Of a DNA stretch of 18,504 nucleotides, positions 5,850 to 17,099 are shown piece after piece; within the stretch, counting starts at the first letter, position 1, and every line of letters begins with the position of its first letter. The position numbers and the translations under genes were made by a program. The stretch is from Acidimicrobiaceae bacterium (GTDB lineage Bacteria; Actinomycetota; Acidimicrobiia; Acidimicrobiales; RAAP-2): assembly GCA_003131665.1 (NCBI GenBank), contig PKWA01000125.1, forward strand, positions 33,452 to 51,955, read 5' to 3'. Under the pieces are notes generated by a model. That model had not been told where the DNA came from. It made no database searches and saw nothing but the letters and a program-made list of their open reading frames with translations.

Positions 5850-7210
5850 GTCAGTCCGCCGGGAAGTTCGTCGATGAGCGAACCGACGTCGCCCGCGCCG
5901 AGCACGAGAATCACGTCACTGTCGCTCGCTAATTGCTCGAGCGCCTTCAGGACACCGGCGAACTCGGCCCGGTACGTCGTGTCGAGCGACGAGTCGTAGT
6001 GCACCAGGGCGTCCGCCACGAGCTCACCGGTGACCGAGGTGGGATTGGCCTCGCCGGCGCTGTAGAGATCGGTCACCACGACGTGACGCGCCCCTCGAAA
6101 GGCCGGCGCGAACTGCTCGACGAGCGCCAGCGTGCGAGTGACCCGATGGGGTTGAAAGACCACCGTCACCCGCTCGTAGCCGGCCGCGCGCGTCGCCTCG
6201 AGCGTCGCGGCGATCTCGCCGGGCAGGTGCGCGTAGTCCTCGTAGACGTCGACGCCTCGCCACGCGCCTCGGTACTGGTAGCGCCGCGGCGCGCCCACGA
6301 AGTTCGAGAGCCCCGCGACGACGGCCTCGCTCGAGAGTCCGAGCGTGCGGGCCAACCCCGCCACCACCGCCGCGTTCGCCACGTTATGGGCGCCCGTGAC
6401 GCGCAGCGTGATCGACAACGACTCACCCGGGCCACTCAACACGAACGAGGCTCGGCGACGTTCGAGCTCGACCTTGCTCACCCGCCACGCGACGCCCTTC
6501 GACGTTCCCACCCGTACGACCTCTCGCTTGAGGCTTCGCACCACGCGAGTGGCGCCCGCGTCCTCACCCCACACCACCACCGGCCCCGCCGTTCGAGTGA
6601 TCAGGCCGCCAAAGGCCGCCTCGAGGGCGTCGAGGGTGCCGTAGTGATCGAGATGGTCGGCTTCGACGTTCAAGAGCCCCAGCGCGAAGGGCCGCAGCTC
6701 GCCAAAAGTGCCAAAACTCTCGTCCAACTCGGCGATGAGATCGCCCTGGCCCCAGTGGCCGTTCGCGCCCACGCCCAGGACCGGGGCGCCCACGAGCCAC
6801 CCGTCATCTCGACCGGCCGCCAAGGAGACCTGCACCATCATCGACGTCGCCGTGGTCTTGCCGTGCGTGCCCGCCAGGCCGATCACCCTCTTCATCGTCG
6901 CCAACTCGTTGAAGGCGTCCGCACGAGTCACCAGTCGTGCGCCATTGGCCCGTGCCGCCACCACTTCGACGTTGTCGGCGGCTACCGCCGGTGACCAGGT
7001 CAGCACGTCAACGCCCTCGACCTGGCTCGCGCGGTGACCGACGAAGGTGCGAACGTGATGATCGCGCAGCTCTTGTAACACCAACGAGTCCACCGCATCG
7101 CTGCCGCTCACCGAGGCGCCCATTTCCGCCAACAACAGCGCCAGGCCGCTCATACCCGCGCCCCCCACGCCCACCACGTGCACGTGTGGATGGGCGTCAA
7201 AACTGCTCAC
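5846..7210 (-). CDS. murC: UDP-N-acetylmuramate--L-alanine ligase MurC
   Basis: MurC is the ATP-dependent cytosolic ligase that adds L-Ala to UDP-MurNAc. The frame is open further upstream, but that part lies inside murG. The GTG at 7210 shares GTGA with the murG stop and gives a normal 454-residue protein beginning just before the Rossmann motif GVGGAGMSGLA (14-24). The ATP loop is GTHGKTT (114-120). Metal ligands are expected at E161 in AELDES and H186 in NVEADHLDHYG. HNVANA (275-280) and FQPHRVTRT are also present. Two positions differ from the usual consensus: EDYAHLP (324-330) in place of YxHHP, and LDESFGTF in place of ADESDxSF. The ligase fold is intact. This is the only UDP-MurNAc ligase here besides MurE. 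Confidence 0.95.
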   Translation of the reverse strand: MSSFDAHPHVHVVGVGGAGMSGLALLLAEMGASVSGSDAVDSLVLQELRDHHVRTFVGHRASQVEGVDVLTWSPAVAADNVEVVAARANGARLVTRADAFNELATMKRVIGLAGTHGKTTATSMMVQVSLAAGRDDGWLVGAPVLGVGANGHWGQGDLIAELDESFGTFGELRPFALGLLNVEADHLDHYGTLDALEAAFGGLITRTAGPVVVWGEDAGATRVVRSLKREVVRVGTSKGVAWRVSKVELERRRASFVLSGPGESLSITLRVTGAHNVANAAVVAGLARTLGLSSEAVVAGLSNFVGAPRRYQYRGAWRGVDVYEDYAHLPGEIAATLEATRAAGYERVTVVFQPHRVTRTLALVEQFAPAFRGARHVVVTDLYSAGEANPTSVTGELVADALVHYDSSLDTTYRAEFAGVLKALEQLASDSDVILVLGAGDVGSLIDELPGGLT

Positions 7211-8325
7211 GAGCTCGCTCGAACTTCCAGAATCACCGCGGCGATGGCCTGGGCCGCACCGGGGTGGGCCAGCGTACGCGCACCGAGCGACATCGAGCGC
7301 AGCGTGGCGGGCTCGGCCACTCGCTCCAAGAGCTCTTCTAAGGCGGCGCCGGTGCACTCGTCGTCACGCAGCAACACCGCGCCCCCGGCGCGGACCACGG
7401 CGTCGGCGTTCTTCGCCTGGTGATCGCCCGGCGCGTTGGGCAGTGGCACCAAGATCGAGGGAATGGCGAGCGCCGTGAGTTCCGCGACGGTGCCGGCACC
7501 AGCGCGGCAGATGGCGACGTCACTCACGCTCCAGAGTTCGACCATGTCGGCGAAGGCGATCACTCGATAGTCAAGTCCGCTGGTGGCGAGAGTTCGCGAT
7601 CGAGTGCCGTCGTAGTCTCGCTGGCCGGTGACGTGCAGAAGTGCTCGATCTCGGCGCGACACCCACCTGGTCGCGAGATCGCTCACGGCCTCATTCACGC
7701 GCGACGAGCCCAGCGAACCGCTCATCACCACCACCACGACGCGCTCGGGGTCAATGGGTGGCGTGGCGGCACGCTTGGCCCTGAGACGAGCCTCGTTTGA
7801 ACGATCGACGTGTTCGATGGATGCGCGAAGCGGCGCGCCGGTCACCACGTCCTTCTCTCCACTCGAGCTAAAGGCGCAGCACCGCTTCGTGGCGTAGTGG
7901 GCAAAGAGTCGCTGAACCGCGCCGGGGGTCGCGTCGAACTCCACCAGTACCAGAGGAATGCGCCAACACCTCGCCGCAAAGGACACCGCGAAAGAGGCGT
8001 ACCCGCCCACCGACACCACCACCGAGGGGCGCCAGCGTTTCACCAACACCAACGCCATGAACAGCGCCGCGACCAAGCCCGACGCCGCGGCGAGGTTGCG
8101 CGCCACGTCAGCCACCCGAGGCGATCGCACCAGGCCGCGTCCCGGCAACAAGGTGAGCGCGACGTCGCCCCCGCCGAGCAGTCCGCGCTCTTGCCCGCGA
8201 CGACTACCCACGAAACGAAGTTCCTCGGATGTGACGCCCAGCTGGCGAAGGGCCTCTTCGATCGCCTGCATCGGAAAGACGTGTCCTCCGGTCCCGCCGC
8301 CCGTGATGATGACGGGACCGCGCAC
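7207..8325 (-). CDS. murG: UDP-GlcNAc:lipid I transferase MurG
   Basis: MurG is a GT-B glycosyltransferase on the inner membrane face that adds GlcNAc to lipid I, forming lipid II. The 372-residue protein shows the glycine loop TGGGTGGHVFP (8-18), VGGYAS (106-111), SGSLGSSRVN (202-211, usually GGSxGAxxxN) and the donor-binding segment RAGAGTVAELTAL with E282 plus PGDHQAKNA (299-307). The acceptor-side motif, usually HEQNxxPG, reads VEFDATPG at 128-135, keeping only the Glu and the PG. A hydrophobic patch (about 82-96) suits membrane association. It starts with GTG in TAGTG, sharing one base with the ftsW stop, and overlaps murC by GTGA. Confidence 0.95.
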   Translation of the reverse strand: MRGPVIITGGGTGGHVFPMQAIEEALRQLGVTSEELRFVGSRRGQERGLLGGGDVALTLLPGRGLVRSPRVADVARNLAAASGLVAALFMALVLVKRWRPSVVVSVGGYASFAVSFAARCWRIPLVLVEFDATPGAVQRLFAHYATKRCCAFSSSGEKDVVTGAPLRASIEHVDRSNEARLRAKRAATPPIDPERVVVVVMSGSLGSSRVNEAVSDLATRWVSRRDRALLHVTGQRDYDGTRSRTLATSGLDYRVIAFADMVELWSVSDVAICRAGAGTVAELTALAIPSILVPLPNAPGDHQAKNADAVVRAGGAVLLRDDECTGAALEELLERVAEPATLRSMSLGARTLAHPGAAQAIAAVILEVRASS

Positions 8326-9566
8326 TAGTAGTCCTGTCGGTAGCGGCGCGCGACGGGTTGACGTTCAATCGGACGGGCCGGGCGCGCGCGCTCGACGGTC
8401 TCGCGAAAGTTCGTGAGGCGGTACTCGCGGATCGTGAGGTCGCCGCTGCGACTTCGATCGTGGGCGATGTTATAGAGCAGTCCCACCGCGGCCAGTTCGG
8501 TGATCAGTGCCGTGCCGCCGTAGGAGAAGAACGGCAACGGCACCCCGGTGACGGCCCACCACCCCAGCACCGAAGAGATGTTGATCAACGCCTCGGCGCA
8601 GATCCACGTCGTGATGCCCACCGCCACCAGTTGATAGACCTGGTTCGAGCAGCGCTGAGCGATGCGCACCGACACCATCAAGAACGCCACGAACAGAGCA
8701 ATGACCGCCAACGCACCGATCAAGCCGAGCTCTTCGCCGACGATCGTAAAAATGAAGTCAGTGTGCGGGTTCGGCAGTAACCCCCACTTCTCGCGACTGT
8801 GGCCGAGTCCTAGACCCGTCACGCCCCCGGCGCCCAAGCCGATGCGCGACTGCAAGAGCTGATAGCCGCTCCCGAGCAGATTGGTGTTGGGGTGAAGAAA
8901 CGAGAAAAAACGCTTGGCGGAGTAGGGCTTCACCAGCACGTAGCCACCCACGGCGACGGCCGCCAACACCAGCACCCGCAGGAGCAGTCGAGAAGAGAGG
9001 CCGGCCACGGCCAACATCGAAAAGCAAATCATCATCACCACCGACGCGGTACCGATGTCGGGTTCGAGCACGATCAAGCCACAGCCCAACCACACGGGTG
9101 TCGTCCAGATCACCAGCTGTCGCCAATTGTTCAGCTCGTCATGGTGGTGTTGGACCAACCACGCGATGAAGATCACCGTGAAGAGTTTGAACAGCTCCGA
9201 AGGCTGCAAGTCAATCACGTGAAGATTGAGCCAACGTTTTCCGCCATTCGTGGTGACGCCGACGGCCTTTACCGCGAGCAACAGCACCAGACCTGCGACG
9301 ATGAGCAAGGGGGCACTGCGAACGAGGCGCTCGAGGCGTACGCGCGCCGCGCAGTAGAGCGCGAAGACACCCAAACAGAGGTACGCCCCGTCGTGGGCCA
9401 TGATCGAAAAGGCCGTGCCGTTCGCGGCCTGGCCCTCACTCGCGGAGGCGACGAAGATCGTGCCAAAGATGACGAGCACCGTGGTGACCACGAGCAACGC
9501 GCGCCCCGTGGCACTGCCGCGCGGCAGCGGCTGGACGAAACCTCGCAGAGGCTGACGCGCTGACAC
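8325..9566 (-). CDS. ftsW: SEDS peptidoglycan glycosyltransferase FtsW
   Basis: FtsW is the septal SEDS polymerase that works with the class B PBP encoded upstream. The 413-residue protein has about ten hydrophobic segments. Family motifs are NGGKRWL (107-113), QPSE (121-124), LEPDIGTA (167-174), LLPNPHTDFIFTIVGEELG (263-281) with the catalytic Asp expected at D270, and GVPLPFFSYGGT (341-352). The cytoplasmic tail after about residue 370 is Arg-rich and ends in RYRQDY. The start is GTG immediately after the mraY stop (TGAGTG). This is where murD usually lies, between mraY and ftsW, and it is absent. Confidence 0.97.
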   Translation of the reverse strand: MSARQPLRGFVQPLPRGSATGRALLVVTTVLVIFGTIFVASASEGQAANGTAFSIMAHDGAYLCLGVFALYCAARVRLERLVRSAPLLIVAGLVLLLAVKAVGVTTNGGKRWLNLHVIDLQPSELFKLFTVIFIAWLVQHHHDELNNWRQLVIWTTPVWLGCGLIVLEPDIGTASVVMMICFSMLAVAGLSSRLLLRVLVLAAVAVGGYVLVKPYSAKRFFSFLHPNTNLLGSGYQLLQSRIGLGAGGVTGLGLGHSREKWGLLPNPHTDFIFTIVGEELGLIGALAVIALFVAFLMVSVRIAQRCSNQVYQLVAVGITTWICAEALINISSVLGWWAVTGVPLPFFSYGGTALITELAAVGLLYNIAHDRSRSGDLTIREYRLTNFRETVERARPARPIERQPVARRYRQDY

Positions 9567-10601
9567 TCAGACCACCTTGGCGATCTTGAGAAAGTCGCCG
9601 TAGAAGATGCCCAGGCCGAGCATCGCCACGAGCCCGGCGAGTATCCAGAATCGAATGAGGACCGTGGTCTCGGGCCAACCGCGAAGTTCGAAGTGGTGGT
9701 GAAAGGGCGCCATGCGAAAGATCCGACGGCCGAAGATTCGAAAACTGACCACTTGGAGAATCACCGAGGCGGTCTCGGCGACGAAGAGTCCGCCAATGAT
9801 CACGAGCAGCAGGTCCAGGTTCATTAACAGACAGAGCGCACCCAGGCCCGTGCCGACCGCCAAGGAGCCGGTGTCACCCATGATGATTCGAGCGGGTGCC
9901 GCGTTCCACCAGAGAAAGCCGAGGCACGCCCCGACCAGTCCTACCGCGACGAGTCCGAGGTCGAGCGCCGCGTGCAGTTGGTAGATCCCGAAGTGACGAA
10001 ACTGCCAGTAGCCAATGATCGACAACACCCCAAAGCAAAACGTGGCCGAACCGGCCGCCAAGCCGTCGAGCCCATCGGTCAGATTCACCGCGTTGGACGT
10101 GGCGATGATGACAAAGACCGCCAGTAGGAACCAGCCCGTCGCCGTCAAGTTCCACCCGGGCAGCGAAAACCGAGTGAAGGAGAGATCGGTCGAGGTGTGC
10201 ACCCACGAAAGAGCCAGCAACGCAAAGACGCCCGCGATCACCAGTTGACCGATCAGCTTGCCCAGCTTGTTCAGACCTAAGTTGCGGGCGTTACGAATGG
10301 CCAAGTAGTCGTCCATGAAACCTAAGAGCCCCGAAGCGACCATGACCAGCACCGCCAAGACGCCCGCGCGCGTGAAGCCAATCGACGTACCGACGTGGCC
10401 CATGAGGTAACCGAGCACGCCAGCCAGCACGATGATCACCCCGCCCATCGTGGGTGTGCCCGCTTTGTGATGATGGGTCGAGGGACCGTCTTCACGGATC
10501 TGCTGGCCGAGGGAGCGCGCCCGCAAGAACCTCATCCACAGTGGCGTGAGCAGTAACGAGCAGAGGAATCCGACCCCGCCCGACTCCATCAGACTCAACA
10601 T
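9567..10601 (-). CDS. mraY: Phospho-MurNAc-pentapeptide transferase MraY
   Basis: MraY transfers phospho-MurNAc-pentapeptide from UDP to undecaprenyl phosphate, making lipid I. The 344-residue polytopic protein contains all signature loops: HHHKAGTPTMGG (43-54), the acidic pair DDY (97-99), SNAVNLTDGLDGLA (169-182), GDTGSLA (242-248) and MAPFHHHFELRGWPE (297-311). The ATG at 10601 follows GAGGT, which overlaps the murE stop region, leaving a 7-nt gap. murF, usually directly upstream, is absent. No abnormal residues were seen. Confidence 0.98.
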   Translation of the reverse strand: MLSLMESGGVGFLCSLLLTPLWMRFLRARSLGQQIREDGPSTHHHKAGTPTMGGVIIVLAGVLGYLMGHVGTSIGFTRAGVLAVLVMVASGLLGFMDDYLAIRNARNLGLNKLGKLIGQLVIAGVFALLALSWVHTSTDLSFTRFSLPGWNLTATGWFLLAVFVIIATSNAVNLTDGLDGLAAGSATFCFGVLSIIGYWQFRHFGIYQLHAALDLGLVAVGLVGACLGFLWWNAAPARIIMGDTGSLAVGTGLGALCLLMNLDLLLVIIGGLFVAETASVILQVVSFRIFGRRIFRMAPFHHHFELRGWPETTVLIRFWILAGLVAMLGLGIFYGDFLKIAKVV

Positions 10602-10608
10602 GGCGACC

Positions 10609-12009
10609 TCACTTCAACAGCTCTTGAACTACGACACGGTCATCGAAGGGAAGCACGAGGTCGCCCACCGTCTGGGTCGACTCGTGGCCCTTGCCGGCGA
10701 TGACCACCACGTCGCCCGTCTCGGCGCCGGCGAGTGCCTGCGCGATGGCCGAACGACGGTCGACGTCACGAACGACCTGGGCGCTTGGCGCCACGCCCAC
10801 CATCACGGCATCAATGATGGCATCTGGCGCTTCGGTGCGGGGGTTATCCGACGTGACGACGGTGAGATCCGACAAGGTCGACACGACACGGCCCATTTCG
10901 GGCCGCTTGGCCCGATCGCGATCGCCTCCGGCCCCATAGACGGTGATCATTCGCCCGCCGGTCTGAAGGAGTCGCACGTCGCTCAAGAGTCGCTGCAAAC
11001 CCTCGGGCGTGTGCGCGTAGTCGACGATGACGGTCACGCCGTTGCCGTAGAGCACGTCGAACCGGCCGGGAATTGACGCGACTTCACCCATGGAAGCCGC
11101 CACCTGCTCATCGCTGGCGCCCAACGTACTCATGATGGCCATCGCGAGCAAGGCGTTATCGACGTTGTAGTCCCCGACCAGCGACGAGTTGACCAAGTGG
11201 CCGCGCCAAAAAAAGGTCGACCCCTGCAGTGTGGTCTCGACGTCCTTCGCGTCACCGCGTGAGACTCGCGTCACCGGCAGCGCGGTCATCTCGGCCAGGC
11301 GCTGGCCGTAGGGGTCGTCGATCCAGATCACGGCGCGCTTCGCGTATTCGATCGTAAAGAGGGAGGCCTTGGCCAGAAAATACTGTTCCATCGTCCCGTG
11401 ATAGTCGAGATGTTCGTGACTGAGATTGGTAAAGGCGGCGACACAAAACCGCAGGCCTTCGATGCGGCGCTGATCGAGCGCGTGACTCGAGACCTCGATG
11501 GCCACGAGTGAGTCGGGCGTCGTGGAGTTGAAGTGACCCACGAGGGTGGCGAGCGTGCGATAGAGCTCGGGCGCCGCGGGCGTCGTTCGCTGGTTCGTCA
11601 AAGTGCCGATACTGGCCGCGTTCCACGAGAGCGCCCGGGCCAACGAACTCACCAGTGTCGTCACACTCGTTTTGCCGTTGGTACCGGTCACCGCGACTAA
11701 CTTGGCCCTGGTTTCTGGGTGAGCGACGATGGCGGCGCTGGCGTGCGCGAGTAGCGCACGCAGTTGCGAGGTCGGCACCACCACGACGGGTACCGTGGCG
11801 TTGATTGGCCGATCGGACACGACAGCCAGCGCTCCACGGCCGATCGCGTCCTTGACGAACGCGGCCCCGTGCTGGCGCGTACCGGGCATCGCGAAGAAGA
11901 GCGTGCCGGACTCGCACTCACGCGAGTCGATCTCGACGCGCGAGACTTCCAGGCTGCTCGTCGAGACGTCAAGGGAAAGATCGTCCAGGATGTCGCCCAG
12001 CTGCATCAC
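10609..12009 (-). CDS. murE: UDP-MurNAc-tripeptide synthetase MurE
   Basis: MurE adds the third stem residue to UDP-MurNAc-L-Ala-D-Glu. The 466-residue protein has the N-terminal UDP-binding domain (DSRECESGTLFFA, 28-40), ATP loop TGTNGKTS (108-115), the segment FTNLSHEHLDYHGTMEQYF (193-211) with the likely carbamylated lysine K214, DYAHTPEGL (330-338), and GKGHE (439-443). DNPRTE at 388-393 is the form associated with meso-diaminopimelate specificity, so an mDAP-type wall is predicted. The start region reads GTGATG: the GTG at 12009 overlaps the ftsI stop as GTGA, and the ATG at 12006 is equally possible. No murF-like domain is fused. Confidence 0.97.
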   Translation of the reverse strand: MMQLGDILDDLSLDVSTSSLEVSRVEIDSRECESGTLFFAMPGTRQHGAAFVKDAIGRGALAVVSDRPINATVPVVVVPTSQLRALLAHASAAIVAHPETRAKLVAVTGTNGKTSVTTLVSSLARALSWNAASIGTLTNQRTTPAAPELYRTLATLVGHFNSTTPDSLVAIEVSSHALDQRRIEGLRFCVAAFTNLSHEHLDYHGTMEQYFLAKASLFTIEYAKRAVIWIDDPYGQRLAEMTALPVTRVSRGDAKDVETTLQGSTFFWRGHLVNSSLVGDYNVDNALLAMAIMSTLGASDEQVAASMGEVASIPGRFDVLYGNGVTVIVDYAHTPEGLQRLLSDVRLLQTGGRMITVYGAGGDRDRAKRPEMGRVVSTLSDLTVVTSDNPRTEAPDAIIDAVMVGVAPSAQVVRDVDRRSAIAQALAGAETGDVVVIAGKGHESTQTVGDLVLPFDDRVVVQELLK

Positions 12010-13844
12010 GTCACGTCCGAGGAGATACTGGCGCCCGCGCCCGTGAGGGGTTTTTGTTCAACGCCAGTGGAGGGAATGCCGTAGTGATGCAAGGCGTAGG
12101 ACATGACCTCTTGGAAGACCGGCGCCGCCACGGTGCCGCCGAAGATGTCCGACTCGGGACGCTCGATGACCACGATCATCGAAAGTACGGGATTGTTCGC
12201 GGGCGCGAATCCGACGAACGTGGCGTTGTAGTTGCCCGTGAGTAGTGAGTCGCGTCCGGGGTAGGGCATCGTCGCCGTGCCGGTCTTGCCCGCGACGCTG
12301 TAGCCCGGAATGATGGCGTTGGTCCCGGTACCGTCCAACACCACTTGTTCGAGCATCTTGACCATCGTGGCGTCCACGCTCTTTGAGAGCACGACGCGCT
12401 GGACACTCGACGCGGTGGCCTTCAGCGCTCCGTCGGCGTAGACGTAGCCGCGAACGAGCTTCGGTTCAATAAAAACGCCGCCGTTCGCGATGGCGTTGTA
12501 GGCGTCTAACACCTGGATCGCGGGCACGGCGTCAACTTGGCCGATGGGCAACGCCACTTGGTCGCTGGTGTACCAGTCGGTGGCGTTCACGAGCAGGCCC
12601 GAGGTCTCACCGGGATAGTCCAGCGAGGTGGTCTGGCCAAAGCCCATCCGCTCCACCTGGGCCAAGAGCCCCGCTTCACCCACGCGCGTACCCACCTCGT
12701 AAGTGCCGATGTTCGACGACTGGGCCAGCACCTCGGTCGCGGTGAGATGTTCCAGGCCGTGGCTTTCCGCGTCGTGAAAGAGTCGCCCACCCACCACCAC
12801 TGAATTGGGAACCGAGAACACGGTGTTGGGCGTGATGAGACCGGCCTGCAAGGCCGCCGAGAACGTGACGACCTTAAAGACGGAGCCCGGTTCGTACGCT
12901 TGGGAGAACGCCAGGTTGTTGATCGTCTGCTGGACGCCCGCGACACCCACATTCTTACCCCACGTCGAAATCGGTCCGAGGACGCCCGCGGTGGTTTTGG
13001 TATTGACGAGCGACGCGTCGGCGAGAATCTCGCCAGTCTTTACGTCCATCACCACCGCCAAGCCCGTCAGTCCGTCGGAGGCCGAAAGCTCCCGGGCCAA
13101 GTCGCGCTCGGTGACGTACTGCAATGAGGAGTCGAGCGTCAGTTCTAGCCCGACGCCCGGTTTGGCTTTGCGTATCACCGTGGAGTGCGAAGCGGGCAGA
13201 TTCACGCCCGAGGACGAGACAAACTCTCGCGTGATACCCGTCTGGCCGGCTAGTACTTTTTGATACTCGTACTCCAGGCCCGCCGATCCCGCGCCGGCCG
13301 CGTTGACCCCACCCAGCAGTGACGTCGCGAGCGTGCCATCAGGATACGTGCGAACCGAGGAGTTCTGCACGACGATGCCGGGGAACAACAGGGATGACAC
13401 TTTGCGTCCATCGGTGAGATCGAGCTCGTTGTTCACGATGACGTAGCCGCTGTGCTCGGAGAGCAGCGAGGTCAACTTCGCCACGGGCACGTGAACCAGC
13501 GGGGACATGGCCCGCGCCTGACTCGCGGCGTTGGTGATCTGAAAGTCGTCGGCGATGACAATCGAGGTGGGACGCGACACCGCCAGCGTCTCACCGTGAC
13601 GGTCGTAGATTCCGCCCCGAAGGGCGGTCGTTGTTAAGTCCTCTCGGACCTGAGCGATGGAGAGTTTGGCGTAGTGCGTGTGGTCAACCACCTGCAAGAA
13701 GAAAAGTCGAACGCCGAGCGCGCTAAAGGCCACCGCCAAGACCGCGCGCAGGAGAAGCAAGCGGCGCGATCCCCGAGGCTTCGGCGGGGGCGCGTTGTGG
13801 GCGACTCGGGTTCGACTGTGGGTCGAGGTCTGATGCGCACTCAC
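12006..13844 (-). CDS. ftsI: Septal class B penicillin-binding protein (FtsI/PBP3)
   Basis: This monofunctional transpeptidase crosslinks septal peptidoglycan beside FtsW. The 612 residues comprise a basic cytoplasmic tail (1-28), a single membrane anchor (about 29-51), an N-terminal pedestal (RGGIYDRHGETLAVS, 76-90) and a transpeptidase domain (about 258-585). The active-site triads are complete: S321-V-F-K324 with catalytic S321, S376-S-N378, and K520-T-G in AGKTGTATMPYPG. The Ala-Pro-rich tail after 590 carries no PASTA domain. The start is GTG in GTGA overlap with the ftsL stop. Its position after ftsL and before murE is standard and separates it from elongation-type PBP2 genes. Confidence 0.96.
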   Translation of the reverse strand: MSAHQTSTHSRTRVAHNAPPPKPRGSRRLLLLRAVLAVAFSALGVRLFFLQVVDHTHYAKLSIAQVREDLTTTALRGGIYDRHGETLAVSRPTSIVIADDFQITNAASQARAMSPLVHVPVAKLTSLLSEHSGYVIVNNELDLTDGRKVSSLLFPGIVVQNSSVRTYPDGTLATSLLGGVNAAGAGSAGLEYEYQKVLAGQTGITREFVSSSGVNLPASHSTVIRKAKPGVGLELTLDSSLQYVTERDLARELSASDGLTGLAVVMDVKTGEILADASLVNTKTTAGVLGPISTWGKNVGVAGVQQTINNLAFSQAYEPGSVFKVVTFSAALQAGLITPNTVFSVPNSVVVGGRLFHDAESHGLEHLTATEVLAQSSNIGTYEVGTRVGEAGLLAQVERMGFGQTTSLDYPGETSGLLVNATDWYTSDQVALPIGQVDAVPAIQVLDAYNAIANGGVFIEPKLVRGYVYADGALKATASSVQRVVLSKSVDATMVKMLEQVVLDGTGTNAIIPGYSVAGKTGTATMPYPGRDSLLTGNYNATFVGFAPANNPVLSMIVVIERPESDIFGGTVAAPVFQEVMSYALHHYGIPSTGVEQKPLTGAGASISSDVT

Positions 13845-14293
13845 CGAAGGGTCCTTGATGTTGCCGGTGCGTAACCCAAGAACTTCGGTAGTGGCAGGGG
13901 CGCATCAAGAGACGTCGAGGGTACTTGGGTGACCGACGTGGGATCCACCAGGTGCAATGCCCCGGCCTGCGTCGCAATCTGACTGGGCGCAGACAGATTG
14001 GTGAGTGATCCCACTTGCACCGCAAACGTTGACTGCTCTTGTAACAACTGGCTCTGCAGCGAGTGAATCTCGATCTGACGATTGGCTTCGACCATGCTGC
14101 CCGCGAGCGAGAGCGAGAGGGCGAAGACCACGATCAACGCCGACTTTCGCGACGTCGACGTGCCACGCCAACGTTGTGCGGCCACATCGCGCCGAGGGGC
14201 CCGCGCGCGATGAGACGGTGTGCGCGTGGAAGGAGTCTCGCGCCGGAGCGGTTTGCGGGTGTCGACGCGACGGGGAAAACTAATGACGCTCAC
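13841..14293 (-). CDS. ftsL: Divisome protein FtsL
   Basis: FtsL is a small bitopic protein that forms a coiled coil with FtsB and activates FtsWI. The GTG at 14293 shares GTGA with the rsmH stop and gives 150 residues; the longer open frame upstream lies inside rsmH. Residues 1-50 are basic and probably disordered in the cytoplasm. The transmembrane helix is about 51-70. A heptad region rich in L and Q follows (72-98). Then comes the FtsL-typical pattern LSAPSQIATQAGALHLVDPTS (100-120), equivalent to the 'sP.ri...A..lGmv.P' consensus. Identification rests on this pattern, topology and position between rsmH and ftsI. Confidence 0.88.
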   Translation of the reverse strand: MSVISFPRRVDTRKPLRRETPSTRTPSHRARAPRRDVAAQRWRGTSTSRKSALIVVFALSLSLAGSMVEANRQIEIHSLQSQLLQEQSTFAVQVGSLTNLSAPSQIATQAGALHLVDPTSVTQVPSTSLDAPLPLPKFLGYAPATSRTLR

Positions 14294-15231
14294 GGCGCCA
14301 CCTTTCGAGCGACCCGCAACCGAGCCGCGCGAGCGCGTGGATTGAGGGTGACTTCGTGCGTGCTGGCCAGTTGGGCGCTGGCCCGAAAGACCTTGACTCG
14401 CGCGACGGCGCCGCACACGCAGCCCAGTTCGGGCGAGCAACGGCACCCGCCGCTCTGTTGATCCGCCAGAAAGCCTTTCACGACCCGGTCCTCGCCCGAG
14501 TGGTACGAGATGACCGCGACAACTCCGCCGACGCTCAGCGCGTCCAGCGCCGCCGCGAGACCCCGCGTCAACTGGTCCTCTTCGTCGTTCACGGCTATTC
14601 GCAGGGTCTGAAAGACCCGGGTCGCCACATGGCCGCGGCGGCGCGCGGCCATGGGCACCGCGCGCTCTACCGCTTCGGTCAACTCGTTGGTGGTGATCGG
14701 CTGACGCTCAATGACTGACTTGGCGATTCCCCCGGCAAAACGAGTCTCTCCGTTCTTTCTCAACATTCGCGCCAACTCGTGCTGGTCCACGCGGGCGAGA
14801 AACTGCGCGGCCGCCTCACCCTTGGTGGGATCCATGCGCATGTCCAATGGCGCGTCGGCGCGAAATGAAAAGCCGCGACTCGACTCGTCGAGCTGATGAG
14901 AGGAGACCCCCAAATCCATCAACACACCCACGACCTCATCGCCATCGAGGAAGTCACTGTTCTCGCGAACGACGGCAAGTAAGTCAGCGAACGTGGCGTC
15001 GACGACTCGGACACGATCGCCAAAGACGCCCAGGCGTTCGAACGCCGCGGTGCGGGCCTCGGGATCGCGGTCGATGCCGAGCACCCGTAGCTGAGCGGCC
15101 GACTCGAGGATCGCTTCGGCGTGTCCCCCGCCACCCAACGTGGCGTCAACGATCACCCCAGCCGGCAGGCTGGAAAACAACTCGACGATCTCCTTCGCGA
15201 GTACTGGTTCGTGAAAACGGTCCTGGGCCAT
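14290..15231 (-). CDS. rsmH: 16S rRNA m4C1402 methyltransferase RsmH (MraW)
   Basis: RsmH methylates N4 of C1402 in the 16S rRNA decoding site using SAM. With the ATG at 15231 (AAAGG 6 nt upstream) it has 313 residues, the usual family length. Motif I is DATLGGGGHA (29-38), followed by GIDRDPEA (52-59), LMDLGVSSHQLD (104-115), DMRMDP (130-135), TRVFQTLRIAVNDE (204-217) and YHSGEDRVVK (243-252; usually YHSLEDR). A Cys cluster C263, C265, C271, C273 is present. The frame is open to a GTG at 15348 whose codon overlaps the mraZ stop as TAGTG, giving a 39-residue extension that does not look conserved. Which start is used matters because the start region lies inside a long hairpin. Confidence 0.95.
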   Translation of the reverse strand: MAQDRFHEPVLAKEIVELFSSLPAGVIVDATLGGGGHAEAILESAAQLRVLGIDRDPEARTAAFERLGVFGDRVRVVDATFADLLAVVRENSDFLDGDEVVGVLMDLGVSSHQLDESSRGFSFRADAPLDMRMDPTKGEAAAQFLARVDQHELARMLRKNGETRFAGGIAKSVIERQPITTNELTEAVERAVPMAARRRGHVATRVFQTLRIAVNDEEDQLTRGLAAALDALSVGGVVAVISYHSGEDRVVKGFLADQQSGGCRCSPELGCVCGAVARVKVFRASAQLASTHEVTLNPRARAARLRVARKVAP

Positions 15232-15314
15232 CCGCAGCCTTTCAATCGTGACAACGGGCGAGAGGGCGGAGGAGGTGTCTCGCCTCGCTGTCACGATTGC
15301 CAGGCTGCGCGTGG
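15228..15314 (-). promoter_or_regulatory. Long hairpin enclosing the rsmH ribosome-binding site
   Basis: An imperfect inverted repeat pairs 15228-15253 with 15289-15314 (22 of 26 positions), including a perfect 11-bp arm (15243-15253 with 15289-15299) and an 8-bp arm (15233-15240 with 15302-15309). Inside it a second stem pairs 15257-15263 with 15278-15284. In the transcript this sums to about 32 pairs with two 2x2 internal loops, one A bulge and a 14-nt loop. The 3' arm contains the AGG of the rsmH Shine-Dalgarno, its spacer and part of the start codon. No U-tract follows, so it is not a classical terminator. Regulation is inferred. Confidence 0.7.
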
Positions 15315-15347
15315 TCCGCGGCCGGTACTGCTGGAATGCTCCCTTCA

Positions 15348-15767
15348 CTAGTCACTGCCCTGCTTAAAGATCTCTTCTGCGGCGTTGACCTTCTCCGCGT
15401 ACGTCGCGGGGTTCCAAAGTTCGACATGATCGATGGCGCCCACCACCAACACGTCGCCGGCTAGCCCTCCGTACTCACGAATGGCCCCCGGCAGTGCGAA
15501 GCGACCTTGCTTATCAAACTCAACGTCAGAAGAGTTGGCCGACCAGTAACGGACCTGTTGACGTTCCGACGAACCACCCACGCGGCTTTGTTGGAGACGC
15601 TCGTCCATCTGTCGTGCGAACTCGCCCGGTGTCCACAACGCGACGCAGCCCTCGGTGTTCGGACTTAGATGACCGCCGCGCTCGAACTCGACACGGAACT
15701 TGGCCGGGAGGATGAGTCGACCCTTGGCGTCAAGCGTGTGCTGAAACTGACCCACGAACCCGAGCAT
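15348..15767 (-). CDS. mraZ: MraZ, transcriptional regulator of the dcw cluster
   Basis: MraZ is an AbrB-fold DNA-binding protein forming ring oligomers that binds phased repeats in its own promoter. The 139-residue protein has two tandem AbrB-like halves with the diagnostic motifs DAKGRLILPAKFR (13-25) and DKQGRFALPGAIREY (near 84-98). The ATG at 15767 follows AAGGGA at 5-nt spacing. A candidate operator of five decamers lies immediately upstream. Its stop overlaps a GTG in frame with rsmH, and 116 nt separate it from the family-length rsmH start. It is the first gene of the main cluster. Confidence 0.96.
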   Translation of the reverse strand: MLGFVGQFQHTLDAKGRLILPAKFRVEFERGGHLSPNTEGCVALWTPGEFARQMDERLQQSRVGGSSERQQVRYWSANSSDVEFDKQGRFALPGAIREYGGLAGDVLVVGAIDHVELWNPATYAEKVNAAEEIFKQGSD

Positions 15768-15782: not shown

Positions 15783-15832
15783 GGTTCACCACTTTCCCCC
15801 ACTTCGTGACACATTACACCACTCTTCGCCAC
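15783..15832 (-). promoter_or_regulatory. MraZ operator: five phased decamers
   Basis: On the minus strand five consecutive 10-bp units each begin with GTG: GTGGCGAAGA, GTGGTGTAAT, GTGTCACGAA, GTGGGGGAAA, GTGGTGAACC. Four of five start GTGG, and units tend to end in A-rich bases, giving the AAAGTG/GTGG pattern at 10-bp period known for MraZ boxes in other bacteria (three or four repeats). The array overlaps the candidate -10 and the early leader, fitting autorepression. Confidence 0.75.
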
Positions 15833-15842
15833 CTAGCGCCAA
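15813..15842 (-). promoter_or_regulatory. Candidate mraZ (dcw) promoter
   Basis: TTGGCG (15842-15837) and TGTAAT (15818-15813) on the minus strand are separated by 18 nt; the -10 matches TATAAT at five of six positions. Transcription would start near 15806, about 40 nt before mraZ. The -10 lies inside the second MraZ decamer. The spacing is acceptable and the location is as expected for the main cluster promoter. Confidence 0.55.
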
Positions 15843-15883
15843 ATTGACCAGTCCAGGAAGCATTTTATGGCCCTCAATGCCCC

Positions 15884-15933: not shown

Positions 15934-16596
15934 CTAAGGAACGATCTCGGTGGTCCTAAAGCGCCACGGGCTGCTCGCCAAGCGCAGGCGCGCGAGCATC
16001 TCTTGTGGAGCACTGAGATGGAGCGAGTCCAGGCCTTGGTGATCCAAAGCGTCGCTCAGACCCTCCGGAACCGAGGCGAGATACTCTACGACGTCATTCG
16101 TGGGTTGGAGGTGCAAAACGGTGGAAAGCAACACGCCTTCACGGACCCTCCACTGGGTCAGCCCGACGGCCTTTCGGCGGCCCACGAAGACCTCTCCGGG
16201 TCCGCGCCCCGCGAAGCAAACCATCCGAAATGCGGGATTCCCCTCGAGCGCGCCCGCGTGGACCGACACGGTTTCGCTCGTGTAGTGACGCAGTACGCCA
16301 GCCCACCACTCGCCGGCACGAATCGAACTGACGTGGACGTCGCTGGACCATCGCGGATCATTCGCCGGAATCCACCAATCGATCCACAGGTCATTGGGCC
16401 GAAGAAGAACGAGTCCCCCTCCGCCGCGGCGCCGGCGAAGTGACGTCGCTCCAAGCTTCGATACGTCGAGGACGCTCGGTGACTGATTGGCGCCCAGGAC
16501 CAGCGTCGCGCGCGTCACGTGCGCGGTGATCATCGTGGCTTCCTCCTCGCCACGAAGAGAGCTGTAGTCGATAAGTTCTTCGAGCGCTTCGTTCAC
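15934..16596 (-). CDS. Lipoate-protein ligase A-like protein
   Basis: This 220-residue protein resembles the BPL/LplA/LipB fold, in which lipoate or a similar acid is activated with ATP and moved to a lysine of a carrier domain. Features that match are TLVLGANQSPSVLD (31-44), the RRRRGGGG substrate loop (54-61, family RRxSGGGxV), PNDLWIDWWIPANDPRW (67-83), VCFAGRGPGEVFVGRRKAVGLTQWR (in 126-150) with K142 as the expected catalytic lysine, and a short C-terminal part. The Ser of the usual RxSGGG is Arg here. GTG start shares GTGA with the HNH gene. The substrate could also be octanoate or another acyl group. No lipoyl-domain protein is encoded nearby. Confidence 0.75.
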   Translation of the reverse strand: MNEALEELIDYSSLRGEEEATMITAHVTRATLVLGANQSPSVLDVSKLGATSLRRRRGGGGLVLLRPNDLWIDWWIPANDPRWSSDVHVSSIRAGEWWAGVLRHYTSETVSVHAGALEGNPAFRMVCFAGRGPGEVFVGRRKAVGLTQWRVREGVLLSTVLHLQPTNDVVEYLASVPEGLSDALDHQGLDSLHLSAPQEMLARLRLASSPWRFRTTEIVP

Positions 16597-17099
16597 GACG
16601 CGCGAGGCAGGTACGGCGCCCAGAGTGGATCAGGATCGGGCACGTGTCGCCATCGCCACCAGGGTCCGTCGGGCACTCGAGGTAAAAAGTGCATTCGCCA
16701 ACCCATCTCCTCCACGAGTCGGTCGCCCTTTTGCATGTTGTGCCGGCGACAGGCGGCCACCACGTTGGTCCATTCGTGACGTCCGCCGCGCGAGCGCGGC
16801 ACCACGTGATCGATGGTGTCGGCGTGCTCCATGCAGTAGGCGCAGCGGTAGCTATCTCTCAGCAACAGTGAGCGGCGCGTCAGCGGCGGCGTTCGAATCT
16901 TCGTTGGCAATTTGACCATTTCGTGCAGGCGCACGATCGCTGGAATCTCCACCACGATGCTCGCGGATCGACAGACCTCGGGTTCGTCGGGCATCGCGAT
17001 GGGCTCGGCTCGGCCCGCCAGCATCAACACGACGGCGCGACGCTGCGAGACCAATTGCAAGGGCTCAAAGGTAGCGTTCAGCAAAAGGACTCGCCCCAC
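16593..17099 (-). CDS. HNH endonuclease family protein
   Basis: This 168-residue protein is of the small actinobacterial HNH type. The N-terminal half (VLLLNATFEPLQLVSQRRAV, residues 4-23) is typical of this group. The beta-beta-alpha metal fold has C86-x2-C89, D97-H98 with H98 as the expected catalytic His, SRGGRHEWTN (103-112), and C117-x2-H120-N121 followed by KGDR. The C117/H120 and C86/C89 pairs should hold a structural zinc. The role in the cell is not known. GTG start, 9 nt after the upstream stop, with only a weak AGG upstream; it ends in a GTGA overlap with the next gene. Confidence 0.88.
   Translation of the reverse strand: MGRVLLLNATFEPLQLVSQRRAVVLMLAGRAEPIAMPDEPEVCRSASIVVEIPAIVRLHEMVKLPTKIRTPPLTRRSLLLRDSYRCAYCMEHADTIDHVVPRSRGGRHEWTNVVAACRRHNMQKGDRLVEEMGWRMHFLPRVPDGPWWRWRHVPDPDPLWAPYLPRAS

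Follow-up and report, generated by a model that had tools for sequence, protein, structure and literature searches.

The junction between mraZ and rsmH in an Acidimicrobiaceae genome raises the question of what a large inverted repeat is doing across the apparent start of a gene that encodes a 16S rRNA methyltransferase. The window, by which we mean the whole stretch of 18,504 nucleotides that was analysed, carries both genes on the minus strand, to which all window coordinates below refer: mraZ at 15348..15767 (PF02381, 66.7 bits, cut-off 23) and rsmH, the 16S rRNA (cytosine(1402)-N(4))-methyltransferase, at 14290..15348 (TIGR00006, 265.1 bits, cut-off 154.3; PF01795). Ahead of mraZ, at 15790-15850, we observe repeated GTGG-type words (agtggtg, aagtggg, aagtggtg), which we take to resemble MraZ boxes. 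A division and cell-wall cluster, named by best family match, occupies 7207-14446 with PBP/ftsI, murE, mraY, ftsW, murG and then murC, and holds no murF or murD ORF between murE and ftsW. A 201-aa ORF at 13841-14446, with no NCBIfam or Pfam match at E 0.001, lies in what is presumably the usual place of ftsL, and a protein at 16593-17099 weakly matches IscB and Cas9d models, far under their cut-offs.

We found that the minus strand from 15210 to 15360 folds at −75.7 kcal/mol, compared with a mean of −53.5 (sd 4.29) in 200 dinucleotide shuffles, none of which is equally low (z −5.18; 0/200). The large hairpin that the sequence-only reading had proposed around the rsmH start is thus real; of the borders given for it, 15228-15314, the place stands and the actual extent is slightly wider. 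The whole element spans 15225..15317 and in its window form is one long imperfect hairpin of 93 nt, with 34 pairs, small interrupting internal loops and an apical loop of 14 nt (CACCUCCUCCGCCC, 15264..15277), as judged from fold and alignment and from a score of 51.3 bits with the junction model R2 described below. The closing stem, P1, pairs 15302..15317 (5' strand) with 15225..15240 (3' strand), and is followed by a GG/AA internal loop seen in the fold (15300..15301 opposite 15241-15242) and by the stem P2, whose 5' strand (15278..15299; inner part fast-evolving and compensated) and 3' strand (15243..15263) were delimited by alignment and covariation. The 3' strand of P1, supported by covariation and instance counts, holds an ATG at 15229..15231 and part of a Shine-Dalgarno-like AAAGG (15238..15242), three of whose five bases are paired. 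As had been claimed, CCU at 15304-15302 is paired in the fold with the AGG (15240-15238) of the putative ribosome-binding site, and the ATG (15231-15229) lies within the stem. A genome-wide sequence search returned strong matches only at the hairpin site and its own inverted strand, the others being short (E at least 0.13), and a repeat or mobile palindrome was rejected, the hairpin being single-copy in the genome.

A search for RsmH covered 61 genomes, 59 of which gave a match, and a set of genome contigs, from which 80 loci were kept. In most of the closest relatives, which are mostly Acidimicrobiaceae metagenome bins with bog, fen or palsa in their names, the hairpin is found at the same place in the mraZ-rsmH junction; it is absent from that junction in four relatives of the window's RsmH (L069, L070, L074, L075). 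In these four an ATG that overlaps the mraZ stop still begins the rsmH frame, and together with L181 and L182 they form a natural comparison for function. The alignment of near relatives, A1, comprises 49 sequences including the window (one, L029, cut by a contig end and one, L052, containing N), and excludes 13 loci identical over the compared stretch, L067 (with a 24-nt insert; present in alignments A2 and A4), the four hairpin-free relatives and the more distant L076-L118 except L079; because of those excluded rows it measures conservation where the single-hairpin form exists, not presence.

Across these 49 sequences the 93-nt hairpin shows no insertion or deletion, and on the point on which the sequence-only reading had staked it, conservation and covariation of the two arms in relatives, the hairpin holds: the 34 pairs are formed in 91.4% of cells, and doubly changed cells number 183 compared with 63.7 in shuffles (0/500 as high) and 25-48 with the partner slid, with double changes at 18 pairs. 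When the structure was taken from the window only, the other 48 sequences were canonical at 91.1%, in comparison with 69.9% (sd 2.9, maximum 80.2%) in 500 tree-based simulations that preserve the number of substitutions per column on the tree. In the same 48 sequences, scored on the window structure, pairing survives 23 double changes and is lost through 7, and among single changes from a canonical pair 66 keep pairing and 48 break it. Single steps off Watson-Crick pairs lead to G-U in 35 cases, to A-C in 15 and to others in 30, and the excess of G-U over A-C favours an RNA of the rsmH sense strand. In a strict all-pairs covariation test one structural pair reached E <0.05 (64-106), the next structural pair standing at 0.18, and a non-structural neighbour pair, 138-139, also passed; because this test is weak, the weight rests on the whole-structure tests. 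These findings indicate that the hairpin is a conserved, selected RNA structure.

The frame of rsmH is open upstream through the hairpin up to the GTG at 15348 (15346..15348), which overlaps the mraZ stop TAG as TAGTG and is likely a coupled start that would give RsmH an N-terminal extension of 39 residues; the match to the RsmH family does not begin until residue 42 of the 14290..15348 product. Over the 37 codons that precede the stem ATG, stops interrupt the rsmH frame in 0/48 near relatives and the other frames in 39/48 and 47/48, these counts and the recoding below using the 48 sequences without N. Additionally, element length is divisible by three in all 43 elements assigned to the window's family, compared with residues of 18, 18 and 21 among 57 elements of other families, the split having been set by hand from kinship columns and locus numbers. 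Since the frame is stop-free and the family lengths are all divisible by three, 15231, which had been taken as the translation start, is probably not the only one. The same two features mean that ribosomes leaving mraZ could restart at the overlapping GTG and traverse the hairpin, and the window structure probably sits inside the 39-residue extension, translated from that GTG. The sequence-only reading is therefore borne out as to a selected RNA structure, in sense orientation, in which a start codon and a purine tract are hidden, and departs from our results in treating 15231 as the lone start.

An open frame and family lengths in multiples of three are also what would be seen if the N-terminal extension of RsmH were the thing that selection acts on, with the hairpin as its by-product. 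Yet synonymous recoding weakens the fold in 48/48 sequences (z −5.5 to −2.3, median −4.0), with 8 of 4800 recodings reaching the natural fold, the lengths in the other families are spread over the residues, and the frame is closed in or after the element in 16/100 chosen instances. This explanation is largely contradicted, and we give it almost no credence. In the near relatives an RNA layer and a peptide layer both appear to be selected.

To follow the RNA structure outward we used two covariance models. The first, R1, was made from 47 near-relative sequences and in a position-blind scan matched 42/395 genomes of the class, 26 of them outside the genus; of these 26 we examined 16, and rsmH lay downstream in 16/16. 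In most of the examined sites from other families the element is a three-way junction, in which P1 closes two hairpins: P2 on the 5' side, whose loop is C-rich, and P3 on the 3' side. The junction alignment A4, whose 37 rows were selected by eye from model matches and a one-per-family sample (L179 and L180 among those omitted), has 41 pairs formed at 84.9% and 172 doubly changed cells compared with 56.9 in shuffles (0/500), P3 being the weakest helix at 64.7% paired. P3 is absent from the window, its nearest relatives and several other lineages, which have forms of 86-95 nt. Within the window's genus, seven loci (L140-L142, L149, L150, L183, L184) have a two-armed form of 114 nt with P3 present, and the element is absent from L181 and L182.

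The second model, R2, represents the three-way junction form and matched 122/148 class genomes and 66/81 genera, leaving 26/148 unmatched, where some matched genomes had trained the model and about 30 of the 148 belong to one genus, g209, with weak E-values. In a phylum scan R2 matched 28/396 genomes, with only four weak matches outside the class (G649, G601, G783, G151); spread outside the class was discarded, there being no RsmH or MraZ in the stretches fetched, and an in-class match, G266, was discarded as a false hit. When 36 class matches were fetched, RsmH lay downstream in 35 and MraZ upstream in 34, one genome (G254) being without a MraZ match, and in a non-random set of 100 chosen instances, found some via rsmH and some via the models, RsmH is downstream on the same strand in 100/100. 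A one-per-family sample comprised 21 genomes (of 24, two had no rsmH match and one lay at a contig edge); R1 matched 16 of these on the rsmH strand at E ≤0.1 and R2 matched 18, many of which had been used in R2 training, and the model scans found no element in L164, L171 and L175. R1 scores L165 higher on the antisense strand, and the higher scores of the models on the sense strand carry little weight because the models were built on that strand. As regards a conserved aptamer core of the kind that a riboswitch would have, the conserved columns outside the loop are by eye mainly those of the paired P1 stem. As judged by model matches, the element is on rsmH in most sampled genomes of the class, and it is not in Rfam.

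A scan of the window stretch and 23 relatives (24 sources) against Rfam 15 found no family reaching its threshold. The sub-threshold matches were mostly to miRNA models, and the one with the lowest E, RSV_RNA on the antisense strand of L072 (2.9e-5; 30.5 bits, cut-off 105), was taken as chance. Among the matches listed in our literature search, in which subscription journals were mostly outside the scope so that absence is weak evidence, no paper treated an rsmH leader RNA in the class. The earlier statement that no such rsmH leader had been described nevertheless needs correcting, since the mraW RNA (RF01746) is described at the same place in actinomycetes; what stands is that the present element is separate from it by score. 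Weinberg et al. 2010 list mraW RNA for Actinomycetales (PMC2864571), the leader is found in C. glutamicum RNA-seq (PMC3890552, PMC4046766), and its function is called unknown (PMC5640933), as far as the available parts of these sources go.

That our element has diverged from within the mraW RNA family, sharing that family's function, is suggested by the shared mraZ-rsmH position, the long hairpin, one single-sequence fold (L124) that is three-way, and the conserved C-rich apical loop, ACUUCCCC and ACUCCGCC agreeing by eye at 6 of 8 positions. Against this, RF01746 (threshold 50 bits) gives no match in the 24 sources at E up to 1, 5 or 10, the RF01746 sites are missed by both R1 and R2 (the lone match in those loci, elsewhere in L126, is at chance level with E 1.6), and the RF01746 loop words do not have their best match in 16S rRNA at C1402. 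RF01746 itself occurs in 9/149 phylum genomes and in none of the class members in that set, with the loop CUUCCCC in the eight loci examined. We consider common membership doubtful, although it is the strongest of the alternatives weighed here. The RF01746 RNA lies inside an open rsmH-frame extension (LAYFPNAR) in L119 and L121, and in another frame than rsmH in L122.

What the element might do is indicated by where the start codon falls. The 3' strand of P1 has a slot, 7 nt short of the end of the element, that holds an in-frame ATG or GTG in 72/100 chosen instances (five of them GTG). In the 83 instances with any ATG or GTG there, a mean of 2.7 of the codon's 3 bases are paired, and for the purine tract ahead of it the median paired fraction is 1.0; as a Shine-Dalgarno sequence, that tract is no better than its own shuffles (mean z −0.10). 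The slot lacks an in-frame start in 28/100, and of the 16/100 in which the frame is closed, either within the element or beyond it, six use the slot and ten must start elsewhere downstream, so that burial of the start codon is not universal. A second ATG, in the 5' strand of P1 (CCAUGCGCAG), is present in many near relatives, its position reading GTG in L152, TTG in L150 and L184 and CAUC in distant families; it may therefore be a further start in part of the class.

Since the purine tract and an in-frame ATG or GTG usually lie in the closing stem, initiation at that point should be hindered while the stem is closed. We consider it probable (about 0.7), on the strength of comparative sequence evidence, that the element is a structured RNA acting in cis, within the mraZ-rsmH message, to control rsmH translation. 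In the near relatives, the hairpin could also be opened by ribosomes that reinitiate at the start codon overlapping or following the mraZ stop, which would couple RsmH output to mraZ translation. A stem of this kind could instead serve processing or stability, as an RNase III type site at which the mraZ message is parted from that of rsmH or the proportion of the two is set: most single-sequence folds give P1 by itself about 20 pairs and few mismatches. Such a site leaves the conserved loop and the in-stem start codon unexplained, and we regard it as improbable.

The chief mechanistic rival to a factor acting on the message is a reading through modified ribosomes, in which the stem taxes translation of rsmH by ribosomes without m4Cm1402, and RsmH feeds back via the ribosomes, not touching the message. 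There is precedent in a 2026 preprint, the available part of which ties a dependence on MraW-modified ribosomes to early stem-loops in the B. subtilis genes cmpA, isp and yukJ (PMC13317604), and a strong stem lies over the ATG/GTG slot in most of our instances. However, this feedback could work with any loop, whereas among the unpaired parts it is the loop that is most conserved; the feedback would be positive, which we judge odd for a housekeeping enzyme; and the stems here are long, whereas in the part of the preprint available strengthening the cmpA or isp stem blocked translation or drastically reduced it, so that strong stems block even modified ribosomes (PMC13317604). We hold it to be unlikely, and return to an RNA whose closed and open forms would be set by something that reads the loop.

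In the 100 chosen instances, a motif search gave the loop core (15265..15271 in the window) as CUCCGCC in 91, CUCCACC in 5 and others in 4 (CUCCGCA in L045 and L146, UUCCGCC in L219, UACCGCC in L213). With no motif imposed, CUCCGCC stands in 86/96 sequences at the loop columns of a model-made alignment, which omits L221, L139, L228 and L231. The loop is kept even in the lineage f90/g209, with genomes of 0.6-1.1 Mb and elements of 44-47% GC, genomes that we take to be of the kind found in Actinomarina. In the near relatives the loop reads Ser-Ser-Ala with the free third codon positions nearly always C (GCA twice, in L045 and L056), and for this reason the peptide does not explain the loop.

One candidate for the loop's partner was the message itself, in a pseudoknot of CUCC with the GGAG just after the GTG start or in pairing elsewhere in the transcript. 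In 32/48 sequences the start is followed by GGAG, and L028 has a GAAG/CUUC pairing variant. The pseudoknot was rejected, the true partners pairing no better than permuted ones (p 0.86), and over 97 instances the complement of the loop shows no excess over shuffled loops within 300 nt upstream or downstream; we regard pairing elsewhere as very improbable.

Within 16S rRNA, the 10-mer ACUCCGCCCG agrees at 9/10 positions with ACACCGCCCG, its best place in the 1520-nt 16S rRNA of a genome of the same genus (G018), the next best reaching 7. We take ACACCGCCCG to be E. coli 16S 1396-1405, which includes C1402, the base methylated by RsmH; under the mimicry reading set out below, the equivalent position in the window is 15266. 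Shuffled 10-mers reach 9 at the C1402 window in 520/200000 cases, a figure to be read with the 10-mer having been picked after the match was seen, and shorter cores say less, their shuffles matching at C1402 in 1.6% (9-mer), 2.3% (8-mer) and 21% (7-mer). The 10-mer's first A is present in 39/96, and C1402 is the best or joint best 16S site for 69/100 single sequences. Three points speak against mimicry: the second core base is U in 94/96, whereas 16S has A; the best match in 16S of the RF01746 loop words is not at C1402; and RsmH, according to the available text of two reports, acts on 30S and not on protein-free 16S rRNA (PMC5053481, PMC6821322).

Taken together, control of rsmH translation by this RNA would involve a trans-acting factor that recognises the loop and tips the element towards its closed or its open form. 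Since the loop resembles the sequence around its target C1402, we judge RsmH itself, in autogenous repression, to be the most likely single reader, a tentative choice whose chances are well short of even. A slightly more doubtful proposal still is that the whole class carries an autogenous switch by mimicry, in which the message is predicted to show a near copy of 16S 1396-1405, ACUCCGCCCG for ACACCGCCCG: RsmH exceeding its 30S substrate would bind the loop, lock the stem that buries the rsmH start, and perhaps methylate the loop C equivalent to C1402. RsmH would then count unmethylated small subunits. The locus matters as a conserved RNA on one of the most universal rRNA-modification genes, heading a division and cell-wall cluster, and as a case of an RNA structure inside a reading frame. 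If RsmH does read the loop, the element would reveal how a 16S methylase is kept in step with the supply of new small subunits, and it would suggest a hypothesis for the mraW RNA of actinomycetes, which still awaits an explanation.

Autogenous control via rRNA-like leaders is known for ribosomal proteins and the ermC methylase. The putative mechanism here would be like theirs, with a gene product binding an mRNA copy of its own rRNA site, and would differ in that RsmH is reported, in the available text, to use 30S and not naked 16S rRNA (PMC5053481, PMC6821322). The stem-loops of B. subtilis cmpA, isp and yukJ likewise cover or follow the start codon and share the link to RsmH and C1402, whereas they are hairpins in unrelated genes and the part of the preprint available mentions no conserved loop (PMC13317604). 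The nearest known thing is the mraW RNA: the loop is CUCCGCC here and CUUCCCC there, and the models do not cross-match at each other's sites, so that by score the two would be separate families, while both are structured RNAs in the actinobacterial mraZ-mraW(rsmH) gap with a long hairpin and a conserved C-rich apical loop, to which the present element appears to be analogous.
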